Positions 36,875-42,851 of a stretch of DNA of 64,000 nt are shown here, in pieces. Source of the stretch: Segetibacter sp. (GTDB lineage Bacteria > Bacteroidota > Bacteroidia > Chitinophagales > Chitinophagaceae); the NCBI GenBank assembly GCA_028288485.1, contig JAQBNO010000097.1, forward strand, positions 1 through 64,000, read 5' to 3'. Both the position numbers and the translations under genes were made by a program. The notes under the pieces are model-generated. The model saw only the letters and a program-made list of their open reading frames with translations, ran no database searches and had not been told where the DNA came from. How positions within the stretch are numbered: the stretch's first letter is position 1; every line of letters begins with the position of its first letter.

Positions 36875-37543
36875 TTAGCCTTCTACTATTCCGTGTTTTA
36901 CAGCGTACAAAATTAACCCAGCCGTACTTTTTGCTCCTGTTTTCATTTTTAAACGATCCCTGATCGCTTCGACCGTACGAGGACTGATATCGACAATATC
37001 GGCAATTTCCTTAGTGCTTTTTTCATCGCACATTAATTTCAAAACCTGCATTTCCTTATCACTCAGCTCAGCGTCATAAGCAGGATTTGTTTCTATCATT
37101 CTCCTGTTTCTTAAACCTGAAAGCATTGCCTTGTTGGTATATTCATTGAAAAAAAATTCTTTCAAATACACCGTTTTTATTGCTTCGTAAATAGTTTCGC
37201 TATCGCTGTTCTTTGTAAGATAACTGTTAGCGCCGATTTCCATTAGTTTACTTATCATACTTACATCGTCATTCATTGTAAGCATAATAATTTTTGCATT
37301 TGGCAATATTTTTTTTACTTCAGGTAATGTGGCAATTCCGTCGAGAATAGGCATTTGTATATCGAGAAGAATAACATCGGGTTGAAGAAACTTTACTAGA
37401 TTAAGTAATTGCATACCGTTTTCAGCCTCACCAATAAATTCAATGTCGCTGTAATGTGCTAAAGAAGTTTTCACACCGGTTCTGAACAATGCATGATCAT
37501 CTGTTATCAGAACCTTTATTCTACCATTATTGTCTGTATTCAT
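36875..37543 (-). CDS. NarL/FixJ-type response regulator (orphan 1)
   Basis: 222 residues. The receiver domain has the acidic pair Asp15-Asp16, phospho-acceptor Asp61 (DVILLDIQMP), Thr in IIMLTM and switch Lys111 (YLTKNSD). The LuxR-type helix-turn-helix at about 159-215 has LSDKEMQVLKLMCDEKSTKEIA and ISPRTVEAIRDRL. No kinase sits next to it, so I call it an orphan, although the kinase at 40060 is only 2.5 kb away. It is one of three NarL-type paralogues in the 36.9-41.6 kb island. Confidence 0.93.
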   Translation of the reverse strand: MNTDNNGRIKVLITDDHALFRTGVKTSLAHYSDIEFIGEAENGMQLLNLVKFLQPDVILLDIQMPILDGIATLPEVKKILPNAKIIMLTMNDDVSMISKLMEIGANSYLTKNSDSETIYEAIKTVYLKEFFFNEYTNKAMLSGLRNRRMIETNPAYDAELSDKEMQVLKLMCDEKSTKEIADIVDISPRTVEAIRDRLKMKTGAKSTAGLILYAVKHGIVEG

Positions 37544-37956
37544 TGAGCAACTAATAAAAGTCTTAGAATTATTGAATTTAATGAAACCCCGAAAGATATT
37601 TAATAAAAACGATAATTCATAAACGGATATTTTACGAGCGGATAAATAAGTAAAAATACTATGCCGCGAATTAGAAGTTGTACGCGAAAGTAAGTATTAA
37701 TTGAAACACGAAAATCGGCGCTTTTGCAGGAATTTAAGGTTGGGTAAGTAGCTACTTTTGTAATGCATAGCCCCATGGCTTTTTCCCCGTTTTGTAAATC
37801 CATTTAAATACAGTAGAAAAGGAGTAATTGTACTGCAATTCGTCCCCTGTTTTAATCCATATTGTAGGAAAGCCCCCTTGTCCCACATCCTATTACCGAA
37901 TTAAAAAAACCGGCCCGTTCAGTCGGGCCGGTTTTTCTTAAGATTAATTATAAGAA
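37544..37956. other. Gap between two response-regulator genes, 413 bp
   Basis: Holds the upstream region of the first regulator, a 12-bp palindrome AAGTAGCTACTT (37746-37757) and the terminator of the second regulator (37905-37936). Short frames inside it have no protein-like features. Confidence 0.5.
37905..37936 (-). terminator. Rho-independent terminator of the second response regulator
   Basis: A 13-bp inverted repeat AAAAACCGGCCCG / CGGGCCGGTTTTT with a 6-nt loop, 20 bp past the stop. It ends in T on both strands, so it can act in both directions. Confidence 0.9.
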
Positions 37957-38610
37957 TTATTCCAACAGTTTGTTGCGTATTGCATACATAATTAGTCCTG
38001 CTATTGTTTTTGCACCAACTTTTGTTTTCATATTTTGCCGGATAGTCTCTACGGTTCTGGGGCTCAAAAAAATTTCATCTGAAATTTCTTCAGTCGTTTT
38101 GTCTTCGCTGATCAACTTGAGTATCTTCAATTCTTTCTCGTTGAACTTGACCGGAGTTGGATAAAATTTTCTTACTGTTTTCTTGTGTTGCAGCTTTAAT
38201 AAGACTGCGGCATTAACGAGGTCATTAAAATAAAAGTCGTCGTTCATGCACGTAAGAATAGCCTTATAAATTTCATCGGCATCAGTGGTTTTTGTAAGAT
38301 AGGCATTAGCACCGTACTCCATCATCTTGGTAATGGTTTCTTTATCGTCGTACATGCTAAGAATAATGATCTTCAGTTCTTCATACTCTTTCCTTATTAA
38401 TTGAAGCGCCTTGATACCATCTGTTTCTGGCATTCTAATGTCCATAATAAGAATATCGGGTTTTTTCATTCTTAGTTTATGCATCATATCCTTACCATCT
38501 TCGGCTTCCCAGATAATCCTGATGTAATCACGGTTTTTCATAGCCATTCGAACTCCATCCCTGAAAATCTTGTGATCATCTGCTAACGCAAGTTGAATCA
38601 ACTTCTCCAT
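37957..38610 (-). CDS. NarL/FixJ-type response regulator (orphan 2)
   Basis: 217 residues. Acidic pair Asp11-Asp12, phospho-acceptor Asp57 (DILIMDIRMP), IIILSMYDD and YLTKTTD complete the receiver. The LuxR-type output domain has KFNEKELKILKLISEDKTTEEISDE with LSPRTVETIRQNMK. It resembles the other two regulators here but is clearly diverged, which fits old duplications rather than a recent one. It is divergent from the 129-residue small-protein gene with a 320-bp gap and has its own strong terminator. Confidence 0.92.
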   Translation of the reverse strand: MEKLIQLALADDHKIFRDGVRMAMKNRDYIRIIWEAEDGKDMMHKLRMKKPDILIMDIRMPETDGIKALQLIRKEYEELKIIILSMYDDKETITKMMEYGANAYLTKTTDADEIYKAILTCMNDDFYFNDLVNAAVLLKLQHKKTVRKFYPTPVKFNEKELKILKLISEDKTTEEISDEIFLSPRTVETIRQNMKTKVGAKTIAGLIMYAIRNKLLE

Positions 38611-38930
38611 AGCTATTTTATTGGGTTAAAGGGTTTTTATAGAATCGAAATAAGGTACAAATTTGGGCATATTAAGGGAAACATTACACGCAGCCACGTA
38701 ACGAGAACTGCGGTTTTTACTATTAATCGACAGTATTTTTACGGTAATCAGAGGTACTTTTACTATTTCTTGCAAAAACCACCCCTGCATTTGTCTCTAC
38801 AACTTGCTCACTATCAGTGTCTTCTGCAATTTAATGAAACTTTTCCAATTTTTCCCTCTTGTGGAAAAGACTACAAATAGGAAATTTATACTCAATTCGC
38901 ATTAATCACAACCCCTAAAAATTTTAACTC
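38611..38930. other. Divergent gap between response regulator and small-protein gene, 320 bp
   Basis: Contains an inverted repeat CTTTTCCA (38840-38847) / TGGAAAAG (38862-38869) about 60 bp before the small gene, a possible regulator site. I see no repeat copy and no clear TAnnTTTG box. Confidence 0.45.
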
Positions 38931-39320
38931 ATGACGAACACAGAAATTAATCCAGCAAAAGTTGCAACACAGAAGAAAGACTTCTCTGCTGAAGTTGGTG
39001 AAGATATTGGTTATGAAAGAGGAGCCAAGATGGTTAAGAATCATTTTGACAAGAACGGAGAGGCCTCTTCTCACTTTATTGGCCGCGACATTATCGAAGC
39101 TATTCTCGCACAGCCAGGTGTTGTTGGCATTTCAATTCACAATGGTATAGACCAATTTGGTCGTTCTAACCAGGTTTTAGTGGGTGTTAATTCGCAAGGA
39201 AACTATGTTTTGAATATAACAACCATTAGTGCCGGCGGCGAATTAGGCAAACAAAGAGGTATTGTAACAGCAGGTGGAGTAAGAAGCACAGGTACACAAC
39301 CTTGCGGTTGGGAATGGTGA
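38931..39320 (+). CDS. Conserved small protein of unknown function near a two-component locus
   Basis: 129 residues without signal peptide or membrane span. After a Lys/Glu-rich start the segment SSHFIGRDIIEAILAQPGVVGISI (about 44-67) leads into NGIDQFGRSNQVLVGVNSQGNYVL, and the C-terminus is Gly-rich ending TGTQPCGWEW. I recall Bacteroidota proteins with the same layout (..IEALLAQ.GC.GIRIY.G...VLVGVN..) next to a roughly 200-residue membrane protein and a kinase/regulator pair, but know no named family or function. The membrane protein, kinase and regulator genes follow on the same strand. A secreted signal or a regulator of the kinase are both possible. Confidence 0.8.
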   Translation: MTNTEINPAKVATQKKDFSAEVGEDIGYERGAKMVKNHFDKNGEASSHFIGRDIIEAILAQPGVVGISIHNGIDQFGRSNQVLVGVNSQGNYVLNITTISAGGELGKQRGIVTAGGVRSTGTQPCGWEW

Positions 39321-39361
39321 TAGCAGAGAAAATGCTTACGTGGTTCTAAAATATATTTTTT

Positions 39362-39369
39362 TATATTTG
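39362..39369 (+). promoter_or_regulatory. -7 promoter element before the 7TM-like gene
   Basis: TATATTTG matches TAnnTTTG. It would start a transcript near 39376, giving a very short leader if the upstream CTG start of the next gene is used. Confidence 0.4.
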
Positions 39370-39431
39370 GGCCAAAATAAGAAATCGACCTGACTGACCT
39401 TATATTAATAGCTTCGGTATTTACGGAAATA

Positions 39432-40037
39432 TTGCCCGCAATTTTTTATCTTGTTACTTACAAAAAGAACAGGGATAGAAAATTGCGGGTAATTTTTTTT
39501 CTTATAATTATTAATTTTTTAAGTGACTTATACGGCCTGTATACTGACACCCACAATCAGAAAAACTATATCTCGTACAACCTTTATATTTTAATTGAAA
39601 CTTTTTCCCTTTATATTTTCTTTTATCAAATCATCTTAAGTGGGGCAGTAAAAAAGACAATTTTACTTACCATCATTTCTTTTTTTATTTTCTGGCTCTA
39701 TCAATTTATAAGGTTCGGTCAGCAACGATTCCTTGACGAGTGTATAACGGTAGAAAATATTTCCCTCCTGGCTTTCTGCCTGTATTACTACATAGAAAAG
39801 ATAATAAAGATCGACACGGCTTACATCTATACAGAGAAAAGTTTCTGGATAGTAACCGCCTATCTTATTTTTATATCCGGAACGTTTTTTCTTTTATTGT
39901 ATATTCCCGGCTTGAAGGGCCAGGAATGGCAAAAATATTATGTCCTGAATTACGTTTTTGTAATTATCCGGACTATCCTTTTATCAATAGCCATGTTTAT
40001 GAAAAACAACGATTCGCCTAAACAGAAGTTTAATTAA
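39432..40037 (+). CDS. Multi-pass membrane protein, 7TM sensor-like
   Basis: 201 residues from a TTG codon at 39432. The frame is open back to a stop at 39378-39380. A CTG at 39390 would add 14 residues (LTDLILIASVFTEI) that complete a first membrane helix. No ATG fits. Six further hydrophobic segments follow, such as VIFFLIIINFLSDLYGLY, ISYNLYILIETFSLYIFFY, ILLTIISFFIFWLYQF and FWIVTAYLIFISGTFFLLLY. Seven helices ahead of a kinase that itself has only one membrane anchor suggest the sensory or ligand-binding partner of that kinase. I do not recognise a named family. The kinase gene begins 22 bp later. Confidence 0.7.
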   Translation: MPAIFYLVTYKKNRDRKLRVIFFLIIINFLSDLYGLYTDTHNQKNYISYNLYILIETFSLYIFFYQIILSGAVKKTILLTIISFFIFWLYQFIRFGQQRFLDECITVENISLLAFCLYYYIEKIIKIDTAYIYTEKSFWIVTAYLIFISGTFFLLLYIPGLKGQEWQKYYVLNYVFVIIRTILLSIAMFMKNNDSPKQKFN

Positions 40038-40059
40038 CATAAAGCCGGCTTTTTGATAA

Positions 40060-40878
40060 ATGATCTTATTACAATCTTTTGGAATTCCCCCTACGCTGCT
40101 ACTTGGAACCATTGGGATGCTATTTTTAGCAATCGCCCTTATTATTTTCATTATTTTTCACCAACGCAAAGTAATACGGTACCAGTTGAAGATGCAGCAG
40201 ATGGAGGCAGAGCAACAAAAAATCCTGTTACGGGCTTCTATCAGGCTACAGGAAGAAGAACGGCAGAGAATAGCGGCAGATTTGCACGACGATGCAGGCC
40301 CCTTACTCGCTACTGCCCGGCTCTACCTGACAGAGAATATGGTCAATCTTGATAAAGCCACACAGCTGCAATCGATATTTAATGCAAAACAAATAATTGA
40401 TGAAGCAATACAACTTATCCGCAATATCTCTCATAGCCTGATGCCGCCAACGTTGAAAAACTTTGGACTGGAAAGTGCAGTAAATGACTTCTTTCACAAA
40501 ATTAATGGTTCCGGCTCTTTAAATGTAAACTGCCGCTTTCATGATTATAAGGTTCGTTTAAAGCCAGATAAAGAACTTACTGTTTTTCGCATCATACAGG
40601 AATTGATTAATAATATCCTGAAGCATAGTAACTCAAGTTTTATCCATCTGACGCAGCATAATGGGGAAGACAATATGATTATCCGTCTCCATCACGATGG
40701 AAGGGGTCTTAACCAGGAAGATTTTCTTAAAATGTCTAAAAGTAATGTGGGGCTTGGATTAAAAAATATACAAAGCCGTCTGAAAGTTATACATGGAGAT
40801 ATTCTATTCGAGCAGGATCCGTCTGAGTCGTTTTATAAAGTAACGATAGATATTCCGAAAGATTATAATGAAAAATAA
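40060..40878 (+). CDS. Membrane-anchored sensor histidine kinase (HisKA_3/NarX type)
   Basis: 272 residues. One N-terminal membrane helix (about 12-34) leads into a coiled segment and the HisKA_3 dimerisation motif ERQRIAADLHDDAGPLL with phospho-acceptor His76. The ATPase domain has FRIIQELINNILKHSN (N box), HDGRG (G1) and VGLGLKNIQSRL (G2). There is no extracellular sensor domain, so input probably comes from the membrane protein encoded just upstream or a partner. HisKA_3 kinases pair with NarL-type regulators, and one begins 50 bp downstream. It belongs to the 38.9-41.6 kb plus-strand cluster. Confidence 0.92.
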   Translation: MILLQSFGIPPTLLLGTIGMLFLAIALIIFIIFHQRKVIRYQLKMQQMEAEQQKILLRASIRLQEEERQRIAADLHDDAGPLLATARLYLTENMVNLDKATQLQSIFNAKQIIDEAIQLIRNISHSLMPPTLKNFGLESAVNDFFHKINGSGSLNVNCRFHDYKVRLKPDKELTVFRIIQELINNILKHSNSSFIHLTQHNGEDNMIIRLHHDGRGLNQEDFLKMSKSNVGLGLKNIQSRLKVIHGDILFEQDPSESFYKVTIDIPKDYNEK

Positions 40879-40928
40879 TCTTTGCCGTTCGGGCACAACT
40901 AATTGACTTTGGTTATTTACCTTTAAAT

Positions 40929-41579
40929 ATGGGTGAGATAAAAGTTGCAATAGCAGACGACCATAAAATCTTCAGAAAAGGCGTTATTGTTTCCTTACGG
41001 CACTACAGTAACCTGAAGTTTGTTTTGGAAGCTGAAAACGGGCAACAATTACTCGACGGACTAGAGGAGGCTAAACCAGATGTTATATTAATGGACCTTA
41101 GAATGCCGGTAAAAGATGGCATTGAAACAACAAAGTACATCAGTCAGCACTACCCACACATATTTGTTTTGGTACTCACCATGCATGAAGATGAAAGGTT
41201 TGTAATTCACTTAATGGAAAATGGAGCAAACGGTTACCTGTTGAAAAGTACAGATCCGGTCGAAATTAAAAAAGCTATTTCGGATGTGGTAGAAAAAGGA
41301 TATTACCTGAATAATTATGTAAACCGGATATTAATAAAAAGGGCCCAGAATAAAAATAGAAACATTCCCTCTTTCAATAGAGAAGTGGAGGTAAGTGAAA
41401 AGGAAAAGGAGGTGCTCACATTTATTTGCATGGAATATACAAGCCAGGAAATAGGGGAAAAAATGGGAATAAGTGCAAGAACCGTTGAAAGCATTAAAGA
41501 GCGTTTGATGGAAAGATTTGGCTCTAAAAATACGGCCGGCCTTGTTTTCTTTGCCGTTAAAAACCACCTGATCGATTAA
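40929..41579 (+). CDS. NarL/FixJ-type response regulator, likely partner of the adjacent kinase
   Basis: 216 residues. Acidic pair Asp10-Asp11, phospho-acceptor Asp56 (DVILMDLRMP), VLVLTM and the switch Lys in YLLKSTD are present. The LuxR-type output domain has VSEKEKEVLTFICMEYTSQEIGEKMGISARTVESIK. It lies 50 bp after the histidine kinase gene and is therefore the probable cognate regulator. The two minus-strand regulators at 36.9-38.6 kb share the same architecture and may also be targets of this kinase. The downstream membrane-protein gene starts 21 bp later and may be co-transcribed. Confidence 0.93.
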   Translation: MGEIKVAIADDHKIFRKGVIVSLRHYSNLKFVLEAENGQQLLDGLEEAKPDVILMDLRMPVKDGIETTKYISQHYPHIFVLVLTMHEDERFVIHLMENGANGYLLKSTDPVEIKKAISDVVEKGYYLNNYVNRILIKRAQNKNRNIPSFNREVEVSEKEKEVLTFICMEYTSQEIGEKMGISARTVESIKERLMERFGSKNTAGLVFFAVKNHLID

Positions 41580-41600: not shown

Positions 41601-42851
41601 TTGCAAATACTTGTCTTTATATTTTATTTCCTTCTTTTTTCTTTCATCATCTCGAGAATACCATTTTTCAAAAAGTCTGGACTCGGCTTATGGCCTCTCT
41701 TAATTCTTTTTGCAATAAAGATCGCCGCAGGTGTTGCTTATGCTAAATTTTATACCTTACCTAAATATTATGAAGGCTCAGATACCTGGCGCTTCTACCG
41801 GCTAAGTTTAGATGAAACAAGATGGCTGCGGAACAATCCAGTCACTTTTATGAAAGATCTTTTTATACACGGCTATGGCGAAACCGGAAATCTCTTCAGC
41901 GGCGAAAACACCTACTGGAATGACCTGAAAAGCAATGTGGTGGTTAAGATAATGGCGGTGATGAATATTTTAACGGGCAACAGTTACTACACGAATATTA
42001 TCCTTTTCAACTTCCTGTTTTTGTTTGGGCTTGTGGCATTATTCAAACTATTCCGGCACCTATTTGCAAGTAGAAAAATAGTAATAATTAGCTTAGTCTT
42101 TCTTTTGCCTTCTACCCTCTTTTGGTGTAGTGGGATACATAAAGACGGCCTCATTCTTTCTGCGACCGGTATCGTTATATATTGTTTATATCAGTTGATC
42201 GAACAGTCTTTCCAGGTAAAAAAGCTTGTTCTTATTTTACTGGGCAGTTTATTCGTCTTCTCTTTAAGAAATTATGTAGTATTTGCATTGGTTCCTTCGC
42301 TGATTGCATGGTTGTTAAGTGTTAAATATCCGGGAAAGAGCATCGCTATTTTTGCAGGCGTATATATTACGGGTATTGCGATTTTTTTTATTGTACCAAT
42401 TGTAATTCCTTCCTTAAACTTCCCGCTATTTGTTACAGGAAAACGTGAAGAATTTTTACTTTTAGAAGGAGGTTCTGAAGTAAAAAACCGGCCTTTAACG
42501 ACCACTTTTTCAAGCTTTATTGCATTTCTTCCTATAGCTTTAGATATGGCTTTTCTCCGGCCCCACCTTACTGAGGTAAAAAATGTAAGTTATCTGCCGG
42601 CGGCAATTGAAGTAATCCTTCTTTTAATATCAATACTGGTAGCAATTTTCAATATTAAAAAAACGGGCAAAGTACGGCCGGTTATCCTGTTTTTACTTAC
42701 ATTTTCTCTTTCAATAATGTTGTTAACCGGCTACACCATTCCTTTTACCGGTGCAATCTTACGCTACCGAAGTTTCGTTTTACCCTTATTGATAACCCCC
42801 TTGCTAGGCATGACTAATATTGCCATTTTTAGTAAGAAAACGAGTTTTTGA
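41601..42851 (+). CDS. Polytopic membrane protein, unknown function
   Basis: 416 residues with about ten hydrophobic helices. No ATG exists before residue 84; the frame opens after a stop at 41589-41591, so the TTG at 41601 is the only plausible start. A soluble-looking loop (about 55-115) contains YYEGSDTWRFYRLS and NLFSGENTYWNDLKSN. Later come STLFWCSGIHKDGLILS and ILRYRSFVLPLL. The layout recalls polymerase or GT-C-like membrane enzymes of envelope polysaccharides, but no diagnostic motif confirms it. It lies 21 bp after the response regulator and may be co-regulated with it. R12 lies downstream. Confidence 0.75.
   Translation: MQILVFIFYFLLFSFIISRIPFFKKSGLGLWPLLILFAIKIAAGVAYAKFYTLPKYYEGSDTWRFYRLSLDETRWLRNNPVTFMKDLFIHGYGETGNLFSGENTYWNDLKSNVVVKIMAVMNILTGNSYYTNIILFNFLFLFGLVALFKLFRHLFASRKIVIISLVFLLPSTLFWCSGIHKDGLILSATGIVIYCLYQLIEQSFQVKKLVLILLGSLFVFSLRNYVVFALVPSLIAWLLSVKYPGKSIAIFAGVYITGIAIFFIVPIVIPSLNFPLFVTGKREEFLLLEGGSEVKNRPLTTTFSSFIAFLPIALDMAFLRPHLTEVKNVSYLPAAIEVILLLISILVAIFNIKKTGKVRPVILFLLTFSLSIMLLTGYTIPFTGAILRYRSFVLPLLITPLLGMTNIAIFSKKTSF

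Follow-up and report, generated by a model that had tools for sequence, protein, structure and literature searches.

The window analysed here, a 64,000-nucleotide stretch from the genome of a Segetibacter (Chitinophagaceae) soil bacterium, contains six signalling genes. Two response-regulator genes lie on the minus strand, RR1 (36875..37543) and RR2 (37957..38610), the latter divergent from four plus-strand genes that encode a 129-residue protein, here called SMALL (38931..39320), a seven-transmembrane protein (7TM, 39390..40037), a histidine kinase (40060..40878) and a third regulator, RR3 (40929..41579), its operon partner. All genes listed in an earlier, sequence-only reading of this DNA were recovered at or near the positions it gave. 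Pfam assigns a receiver and a GerE domain to each of the three regulators, in agreement with their description as NarL-type (NarL/LuxR), and HisKA_3 (67-132) and HATPase_c (172-266) domains to the kinase; the latter had been called short and devoid of a sensor domain, and Pfam matches none, leaving one N-terminal hydrophobic segment. RR1 has no adjoining kinase. A 416-residue multi-TM protein (41601..42851, plus strand) is the downstream neighbour in Segetibacter loci, although its membership of the module is doubtful. A defence-system reading of the locus was rejected, PADLOC giving one weak HTH match, to RR1 only.

The six-gene order is preserved in those Segetibacter loci that are long enough to reveal it, and in other Chitinophagaceae genera RR2 mostly stays divergent from SMALL-7TM-kinase-RR3; the signalling island is therefore confirmed as more than a chance grouping. 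A divergent RR2 is found in 46/61 named loci and a same-strand regulator after SMALL in 54/61, while RR1, the second divergent regulator, occurs mainly in Segetibacter (syntenic there, at 79-89% identity) and in a few others. The proposal that up to three regulators serve as outputs is thus supported in part, RR3 being the regulator within the operon. Three loci (L039, L041, L043) retain RR2 with no RR3 following the kinase at the locus, which suggests that RR2 may serve the kinase.

Similar gene sets without a named function had been expected in other Bacteroidota, and SMALL-7TM-kinase indeed recurs across the phylum, in 60/61 untruncated named loci, 34/38 usable weaker family hits and 17/20 phylum-level hits (seven of the 68 named and one of the 40 weaker loci are incomplete, and L138 has no SMALL hit). 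These counts are not independent events, because some named loci are the G genomes again and some are near-duplicates; L095 was scored as kinase-positive, even though the first gene there is a receiver-cyclase gene and its kinase is matched only weakly. A gene-neighbourhood survey had been named beforehand as a check that could overturn the idea of a linked set, and SMALL, rather than lying mostly away from kinase loci, directly precedes 7TM and kinase genes in nearly all cases. It lacks an adjoining 7TM gene in four loci (L071, L129, L131, L158). Two further SMALL-7TM loci, L206 and L215, have kinases of the PAS/HisKA type, and the arrangement is SMALL-7TM-SMALL-7TM-kinase in L207 and L209 and SMALL-7TM-7TM(-7TM)-kinase in L211, L212 and L218. 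The input pair SMALL-7TM is thus duplicated ahead of a single kinase, and kinase types vary. Over their last 300 bases, tandem SMALL copies are 98.7-100% identical in L259, in L260 and in two of the three copies compared in L261.

SMALL, previously noted as a small protein of no known kind, comprises a folded core and a low-confidence tail ending in CGWEW, and is named by no family in Pfam, NCBIfam or PADLOC. These databases together with a PDB sequence search (best E 0.2), Foldseek (best E 0.27) and VIA-align (best Z 3.0) yielded no convincing known fold or family. Among 62 window-type SMALLs, a class defined by search strength and tail and not by a tree, 60 carry a Trp within the last 16 residues of an otherwise variable tail (59 distinct last-10-mers), the Trp frequency being 0.094 in the tail vs 0.0013 elsewhere. 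In weaker family loci Trp is present in the last 16 residues in only 2/34, and 26/34 weaker loci with a kinase have a CxxC-type tail; in an alignment of distant SMALLs the tail shows a fairly conserved CPxxC...NPLN motif, and nearly all of them have a CxxC-type tail. A Cys within the last 30 residues is retained by only 11/62 window-type SMALLs; the window tail has one Cys and the tails of its two nearest relatives have none, the gene set being kept where the sequence is long enough. (Tail and rate counts omit L071, and window-type counts omit L095-L099.) SMALL of the window carries no signal sequence, and none of its neighbours was recognised as an exporter or protease. Export signals were predicted on four distant SMALLs (L206, L208, L212, L215) and by eye on L268; exported-looking frames numbered only 5/45 among the distant SMALLs.

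The membrane protein had been credited with about seven helices, and AlphaFold2 models it as a confident bundle of seven long helices (mean pLDDT 93.1). Its start codon is uncertain: the frame is open from 39381 and the complete first helix aligns in relatives, so that the start probably lies upstream of the 39432 given previously, but no ATG, GTG or TTG precedes helix 1 in the window. In a survey of start codons an anchor was missing from 4/60 7TM genes, 2/63 SMALLs and 58/58 kinases; since it was absent from all 58 kinases, only SMALL and RR3 serve as controls. Charge distribution predicts an N-out/C-in topology, and the outer half is less conserved (p=0.0012). The window 7TM matches no Pfam family at E <= 0.1, nor any in NCBIfam or PADLOC, and a PDB sequence search gave no match; PF07695 (7TMR-DISM), likewise without a hit in the window protein, is matched by 1/52 members (E 0.012). 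In structural comparison the best 50 matches (Z 11.3-13.7 over ~200 residues) are nearly all GPCRs or GPCR-like, a level that helical bundles can reach through a common arrangement, and the best Foldseek E, 0.13, is not significant. Microbial rhodopsins bind retinal through a Lys in helix 7; in an alignment column that may correspond to this position most relatives have Lys and the window 7TM has Arg, so no retinal link is expected for it.

Evolution is much faster in SMALL and 7TM than in the kinase and regulators, judging by mean pairwise identities of 0.44, 0.29, 0.72 and 0.76 for SMALL, 7TM, kinase and RR3, respectively, across 52 of the 55 complete loci, and of 0.79 for RR2 (1081 pairs). 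On the same 52 loci, distances of SMALL and 7TM are correlated given kinase and regulator (partial Mantel r=0.36, 0/2000 permutations). The correlation is not exclusive to this pair, since it is also seen between the SMALL core and RR3 (r=0.28, 0/2000) and between 7TM and RR3 (r=0.21, 6/2000).

The region upstream of SMALL holds a candidate regulator operator, the palindromic site ACAGTATTTTTACGGT (38730..38745), with a GTA-N4-TAC core at 38733-38742 and a second such core 21 bp away (38754..38763). An EM motif search recovered the site in 55/55 loci, with a score of 402 vs 74-78 in five shuffles run with fewer restarts and iterations; nine loci were left out, L095-L099 were unused and stretches of <=200 bases were dropped. 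The cleaner control is the exact-core count: 102 sites, at least one in each of the 55 loci, vs a mean of 5.2 and a maximum of 10 in 50 shuffles. Distant or weak-hit loci, in which a divergent RR2 is rare, have GTA-N4-TAC in 30/64 cases vs 4.4 expected from shuffles. At <=1 mismatch the motif has its only match within the window here (0.23 expected). A large regulon was rejected, since its own genome contains the strict 16-mer just twice, once here and once elsewhere, against a control count of 1. GTA-N4-TAC is thus likely a binding site of a response regulator, and its location upstream of SMALL makes the module probably self-regulating; the position fits activation and repression alike, and in window-type loci the site could serve RR2 instead of SMALL.

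Downstream of SMALL, TATATTTG (39362..39369, plus strand) matches TAnnTTTG, a sigma-ABfr-type -7 box, and is likely part of an internal promoter of 7TM-kinase-RR3. The box follows SMALL in 54/62 loci examined (seven near-duplicate or odd loci were left out, and the eight without it include L034, L087 and L094, which have no sequence past SMALL); a TTG lies 19-20 nt upstream in 18/54, and is absent from the window copy. No core promoter was located for SMALL, most of the upstream stretches examined being without TAnnTTTG. Inverted repeats near the internal promoter reach p<0.05 in 22/60 loci; an RNA hairpin there was rejected for the window copy, as 102/200 shuffles were equal or better. Operator, internal promoter and likely self-regulation all go beyond the sequence-only reading.

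We favour, with a probability of about 0.5, a two-component module that regulates itself and splits its receptor from its kinase, in which SMALL would be a ligand or ligand-like partner dedicated to 7TM. SMALL would probably act at the outer face of 7TM through its variable tail; 7TM would contact the kinase at the latter's only TM helix, setting kinase activity; the kinase would phosphorylate RR3 and probably RR2; and a regulator dimer would bind GTA-N4-TAC, controlling SMALL and perhaps RR2, with 7TM, kinase and RR3 expressed from their own promoter. The earlier suggestion that 7TM senses SMALL, or a product of it, and then drives the kinase is supported in part, by co-duplication of the pair in L207 and L209, its fast divergence and the variable outer half of 7TM. 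The favoured module also draws on the recurrent SMALL-7TM-kinase adjacency, the SMALL-7TM Mantel correlation, the Trp-bearing variable tail, the candidate operator, the export signals of some distant SMALLs and the near-identical tandem SMALL copies. We counted against a ligand the missing signal sequence, the rarity of export signals on distant SMALLs, the lack of a recognised exporter or protease beside the window SMALL, the conserved distant CPxxC...NPLN tail (less like a diversifying ligand), the SMALLs without an adjoining 7TM and the Mantel correlation with RR3. The fuller version, phylum-wide cell-to-cell signalling by a secreted SMALL pheromone (whole, or as a C-terminal tail released by processing and perhaps modified) through a GPCR-shaped receptor with a separate kinase, with autoinduction via GTA-N4-TAC and co-diversifying ligand-receptor pairs, is a tentative one that we consider doubtful.

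The operator upstream of SMALL and the separate receptor-kinase promoter would fit equally well if 7TM sensed an unrelated cue and a regulator induced SMALL as a feedback inhibitor that damps signalling by binding 7TM or kinase, following CpxP-like logic. The few distant SMALLs that look exported also speak for this, but neither a conserved Trp in a hypervariable tail nor near-identical tandem arrays would be expected of a damping protein, and we regard it as rather unlikely. The CxxC-type tails of weaker and distant loci point instead to an accessory sensory subunit docked on 7TM, binding a metal, redox or other small ligand with no intercellular signal; the gene set is nonetheless kept where the tail has one Cys or none, and Cys is rare in window-type tails, which leaves this reading unlikely. 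SMALL could finally be a co-regulated cytosolic protein of separate function, with 7TM and kinase sensing an external cue, as its missing signal sequence, the likely promoter of 7TM-kinase-RR3 and the SMALLs without 7TM would allow; phylum-wide adjacency and co-duplication of SMALL and 7TM make this improbable.

If SMALL is a ligand, Bacteroidota would signal by means of gene-encoded proteins or peptides whose receptor and kinase are separate molecules; on the rival readings too, a recurrent unnamed class of Bacteroidota two-component systems gains a defined operator, a receptor and a testable input. No description of a small protein-7TM-kinase module was recognised in the portion of the open-access literature covered, and the module could represent a means of communication or sensing not yet described.

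By Pfam and by their joint encoding, the kinase and all three regulators belong to the HisKA_3/NarL two-component systems, from which the module differs in that its kinase lacks a sensor domain and input apparently comes from a separate 7TM and small partner protein. The 7TM is like GPCRs in being an N-out seven-helix bundle, a structural likeness with no sequence relation found, and sensory rhodopsin-transducer pairs, in which a 7TM receptor acts via a separate TM partner, offer an analogy. The window 7TM gives no match to AgrB, the membrane protease family of Agr systems, and AgrB is absent among the at least 25 families listed for 52 7TM members. Compared with ComQXPA quorum sensing of Firmicutes, the module occurs in Bacteroidota, has extra divergent regulators and encodes 7TM and kinase separately, whereas the ComQXPA receptor domain is fused to its kinase; no ComQ adjoins SMALL (the genome's two PF00348 matches lie outside the window, at C40 and C103:72212), none of 57 SMALL proteins matches PF05952 (ComX) at E <= 0.1, the six families that they do hit being others, and SMALL, with its folded core, is about twice as long as ComX. 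Bacillus ComX has a Trp near the C-terminus, in most variants at one of the second- to fifth-last positions (PMC5331326, PMC4008528). SMALL is likewise a small variable protein with a Trp near the C-terminus (within about ten residues of it, in a variable tail, in 60/62 window-type SMALLs, but in the last 16 residues in only 2/34 weaker loci), and both systems place the small-protein or precursor gene ahead of genes for a multi-TM input, a HisKA_3 kinase and a NarL-type regulator; the module thus resembles ComX-ComP-ComA without being a member of it.

All six genes that the sequence-only reading had placed in this island were found at its positions and with its domains (Pfam): two NarL-type regulators on the minus strand, RR1 (36875-37543) and RR2 (37957-38610), and, divergently on the plus strand, a 129-amino-acid protein (SMALL, 38931-39320), a seven-helix membrane protein (7TM, ending at 40037), a HisKA_3-HATPase_c kinase (40060-40878) and a third NarL-type regulator, RR3 (40929-41579). 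The 7TM start has to be revised: the proposed TTG at 39432 would truncate helix 1, with which relatives align completely, and the frame is open from 39381. Among window-type loci (grouped by search strength and tail of SMALL, not by tree), an ATG before this helix is rare (4/56; 24 have no ATG, GTG or TTG), as against ATG starts in 61/61 SMALL and 51/51 RR3 controls; most 7TM genes of the weaker family matches do start with ATG. This scarcity (window 39320-39432; loci L032-L094) suggests weak or unusual initiation.

A gene-neighbourhood comparison found SMALL mostly close to kinases rather than away from them, as the proposed module requires. The order RR1, RR2 (reverse), SMALL, 7TM, kinase, RR3 (forward) and a 416-amino-acid membrane protein is constant in sufficiently long loci of Segetibacter. 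The present genome is assigned to this genus (family Chitinophagaceae), to which the named relatives belong whose SMALL is most similar and whose gene order is identical (L032-L036, L064). This last protein (41601-42851; about 11 hydrophobic segments, no family) follows RR3 in Segetibacter loci only; in other genera SMALL, 7TM, kinase and RR3 remain joined, and RR2 is mostly still divergent. Of 68 named loci, 7 are cut off after SMALL; 7TM and kinase are present in 60 of the remaining 61 (exception L071), a same-strand regulator in 54 and a divergent one in 46. The 40 weaker family matches include one without SMALL in the scan and one cut off, and 7TM and kinase occur together in 34 of the 38 counted; the exceptions are L129, L131, L158 and L139, the last with a kinase and, in the place of 7TM, a 200-amino-acid frame. 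At phylum level, 7TM lies next to SMALL in 19/20 loci, and 7TM plus a HisKA_3-type kinase in 17/20; the kinase is PAS-HisKA with a C-terminal receiver in L206 and PAS plus HATPase in L215 (HisKA match under the Pfam cut-off), and in L204 the kinase is PAS-HisKA_3 and no 7TM was recognised. The SMALLs without an adjoining 7TM (L071, L129, L131, L158) include two double-length proteins; Chitinophaga filiformis has three separate such copies, with 7TM matches elsewhere in its genome, and in one Flavobacteriales MAG (L095, 8019-9104) a receiver-guanylate cyclase protein is encoded after SMALL-7TM, ahead of any kinase-like gene.

Single-sequence searches detected SMALL in 9/9 genus mates and, own genome counted, in 16/59 genomes of the relatives set; profile matches occur in 100/244 family and 34/395 phylum genomes (own genome counted in both) and in 26/149 genomes of another class.

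The moving unit is the SMALL-7TM pair. Among 163 distinct 7TM proteins, 122 are encoded directly after SMALL and the 41 others mostly after RR3, or before a kinase without SMALL; the pair occurs twice before one kinase in L207 and L209, and a single SMALL accompanies two or three 7TMs in L211, L212 and L218. In another class, SMALL forms tandem arrays of three to five copies (L259-L262), followed in L260-L262 by 7TM and a kinase-receiver protein, which L259 also has, its scan having given no 7TM. A comparison of three copies per array (L259, L260, L261) gave 98.7-100% identity over the last 300 bases for every pair, bar those with the last L261 copy (63%). The last array copy has a Cys-less tail in several of these loci. 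In many loci (L049, L051, L053, L060, L072 and others) RR3 is followed by a further 7TM gene, this one starting with ATG. The own genome, in which the window is G000:C103:1-64000, also holds two paralogous 7TM-kinase loci, at G000:C171 (L030) and G000:C123 (L031). Ahead of these lie genes for small proteins of 144 and 77 amino acids, respectively, with Cys/Pro-rich tails and no SMALL profile match; a fourth 7TM is at G000:C108:67.

SMALL and 7TM are also the most divergent members: mean pairwise identity is 0.61 and 0.38, respectively, in seven Segetibacter loci (kinase 0.77, RR3 0.81, RR2 0.76), and 0.44 and 0.29 across 52 loci (kinase 0.72, RR3 0.76, RR2 0.79). Given kinase and RR3, SMALL and 7TM distances correlate (partial Mantel r=0.36, 0/2000 permutations as high); since SMALL core-RR3 (r=0.28, 0/2000) and 7TM-RR3 (r=0.21, 6/2000) are also correlated, this fits a pair without being exclusive to it. 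The 7TM-kinase correlation is weak (r=0.15, 93/2000), and no SMALL core-kinase link was found (r=-0.01). The AlphaFold2 model of 7TM (52-row alignment) has seven long helices (mean pLDDT 93.1), with a topology, predicted from positive charges across the alignment, of N-terminus outside and C-terminus inside; outer helix halves are less conserved than inner ones (1.78 vs 2.14 bits, p=0.0012).

For SMALL, AlphaFold2 predicts a confident core (about residues 21 to 110) and a low-confidence tail. A Trp occurs among the 16 C-terminal residues of 60 of 62 window-type SMALLs, never more than 8 from the end; W frequency is 0.094 in this stretch and 0.0013 elsewhere, and 59 of the 62 last-10-mers are distinct. 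Weaker family matches with a kinase mostly have a CxxC-type tail (26/34; Trp 2/34), aligned distant SMALLs mostly CPxxC followed by NPLN or similar, and some Segetibacter relatives both Cys and Trp (...CPPYC...SWY); the window SMALL has two Trp and one Cys. Export is where the ligand reading is weakest; no signal sequence was found on the window SMALL. A strong N-terminal hydrophobic segment is present in 4/45 distant SMALL frames (L206, L208, L212, L215), and an apparent cleavable signal peptide, judged by eye, in L268; some SMALLs are thus probably extracytoplasmic.

Expectation maximisation on the 220 bases 5' of 55 SMALL genes recovered a palindrome, AYMGTAWWWWTACKRT, in all 55 loci, the best matches lying 167-204 bases ahead of the start codon in 53; its score was 402, whereas five shuffled sets, run with fewer restarts, reached 74-78. 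As a cleaner control, plain GTA-N4-TAC occurs at least once in 55/55 loci (102 sites; mean of 50 shuffles 5.2, maximum 10), with commonest spacings of 21-23 bp (20 pairs) and 45 bp (10 pairs), as for putative dimers on one helix face. Among the weaker or distant loci, 30 of 64 carry a site (4.4 expected), which in 10 of them ends 64-70 bases ahead of SMALL; divergent RR2 is rare there (2/38 and 0/20). The motif is likewise retained without divergent RR2 in L063, L067 and L075, and without RR3 after the kinase in L039 and L041. The strict 16-mer occurs in the own genome at this locus and one other place only. All three window regulators share an S-P/A-R-T-V-E-x-I-like sequence, which we take to be the recognition-helix position, and we infer that the candidate operators (window 38733-38742 and 38754-38763) may be bound by the module's own regulators.

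Between SMALL and 7TM, 54 of 62 loci examined have TAnnTTTG (45 exactly TATATTTG), with TTG 19 or 20 bases 5' in 18 of the 54 (other spacings 0-4); the window gap has the box and lacks the TTG. Box and TTG agree with the sigma-ABfr -7 and -33 elements of PMC7366714, so a separate promoter probably serves 7TM, kinase and RR3, and SMALL could then be controlled apart from them. The TATATTTG box lies between inverted repeats in L036, L063, L069, L083, L092 and others, with arms that vary by species and still pair (p<0.05 vs shuffles in 22/60 loci, the window copy not among these). Near the SMALL start, some loci (e.g. L054, L061, L093) have a T-run with AGAGGTT/AGGGGTT and AACCTCTAAAAA, resembling an inverted repeat and possibly a structured leader.

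In the mechanism that we propose, 7TM would sense SMALL and act via the transmembrane helix of the kinase, which would feed RR3 and probably RR2, and a regulator would control SMALL expression. Positive feedback on SMALL would give an autoinduction switch and negative feedback damping; operator sites alone fit either. SMALL as a ligand is favoured over SMALL as a damping protein because of its variable Trp tail, tandem amplification and the duplication of the pair.

Window SMALL and 7TM are nameless in Pfam, NCBIfam and PADLOC, and no description of such a module was recognised among the papers listed in searches of open-access literature. Foldseek gave no significant match to the 7TM model (best E 0.13); its likeness to GPCRs (best Z 13.7, falling to 11.3 at rank 50 among the matches listed) may be only a common arrangement of helices. 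Membership in ComQXPA was rejected, there being no ComQ beside SMALL, no ComX family match, and a receptor split from the kinase; the abstract of the ComQXPA census reports none outside Firmicutes. What the module works like is ComX-ComP-ComA, where, according to PMC4008528 and PMC5331326, an extremely variable precursor with a Trp near its C-terminus is likewise paired with a HisKA_3 kinase, ComP.
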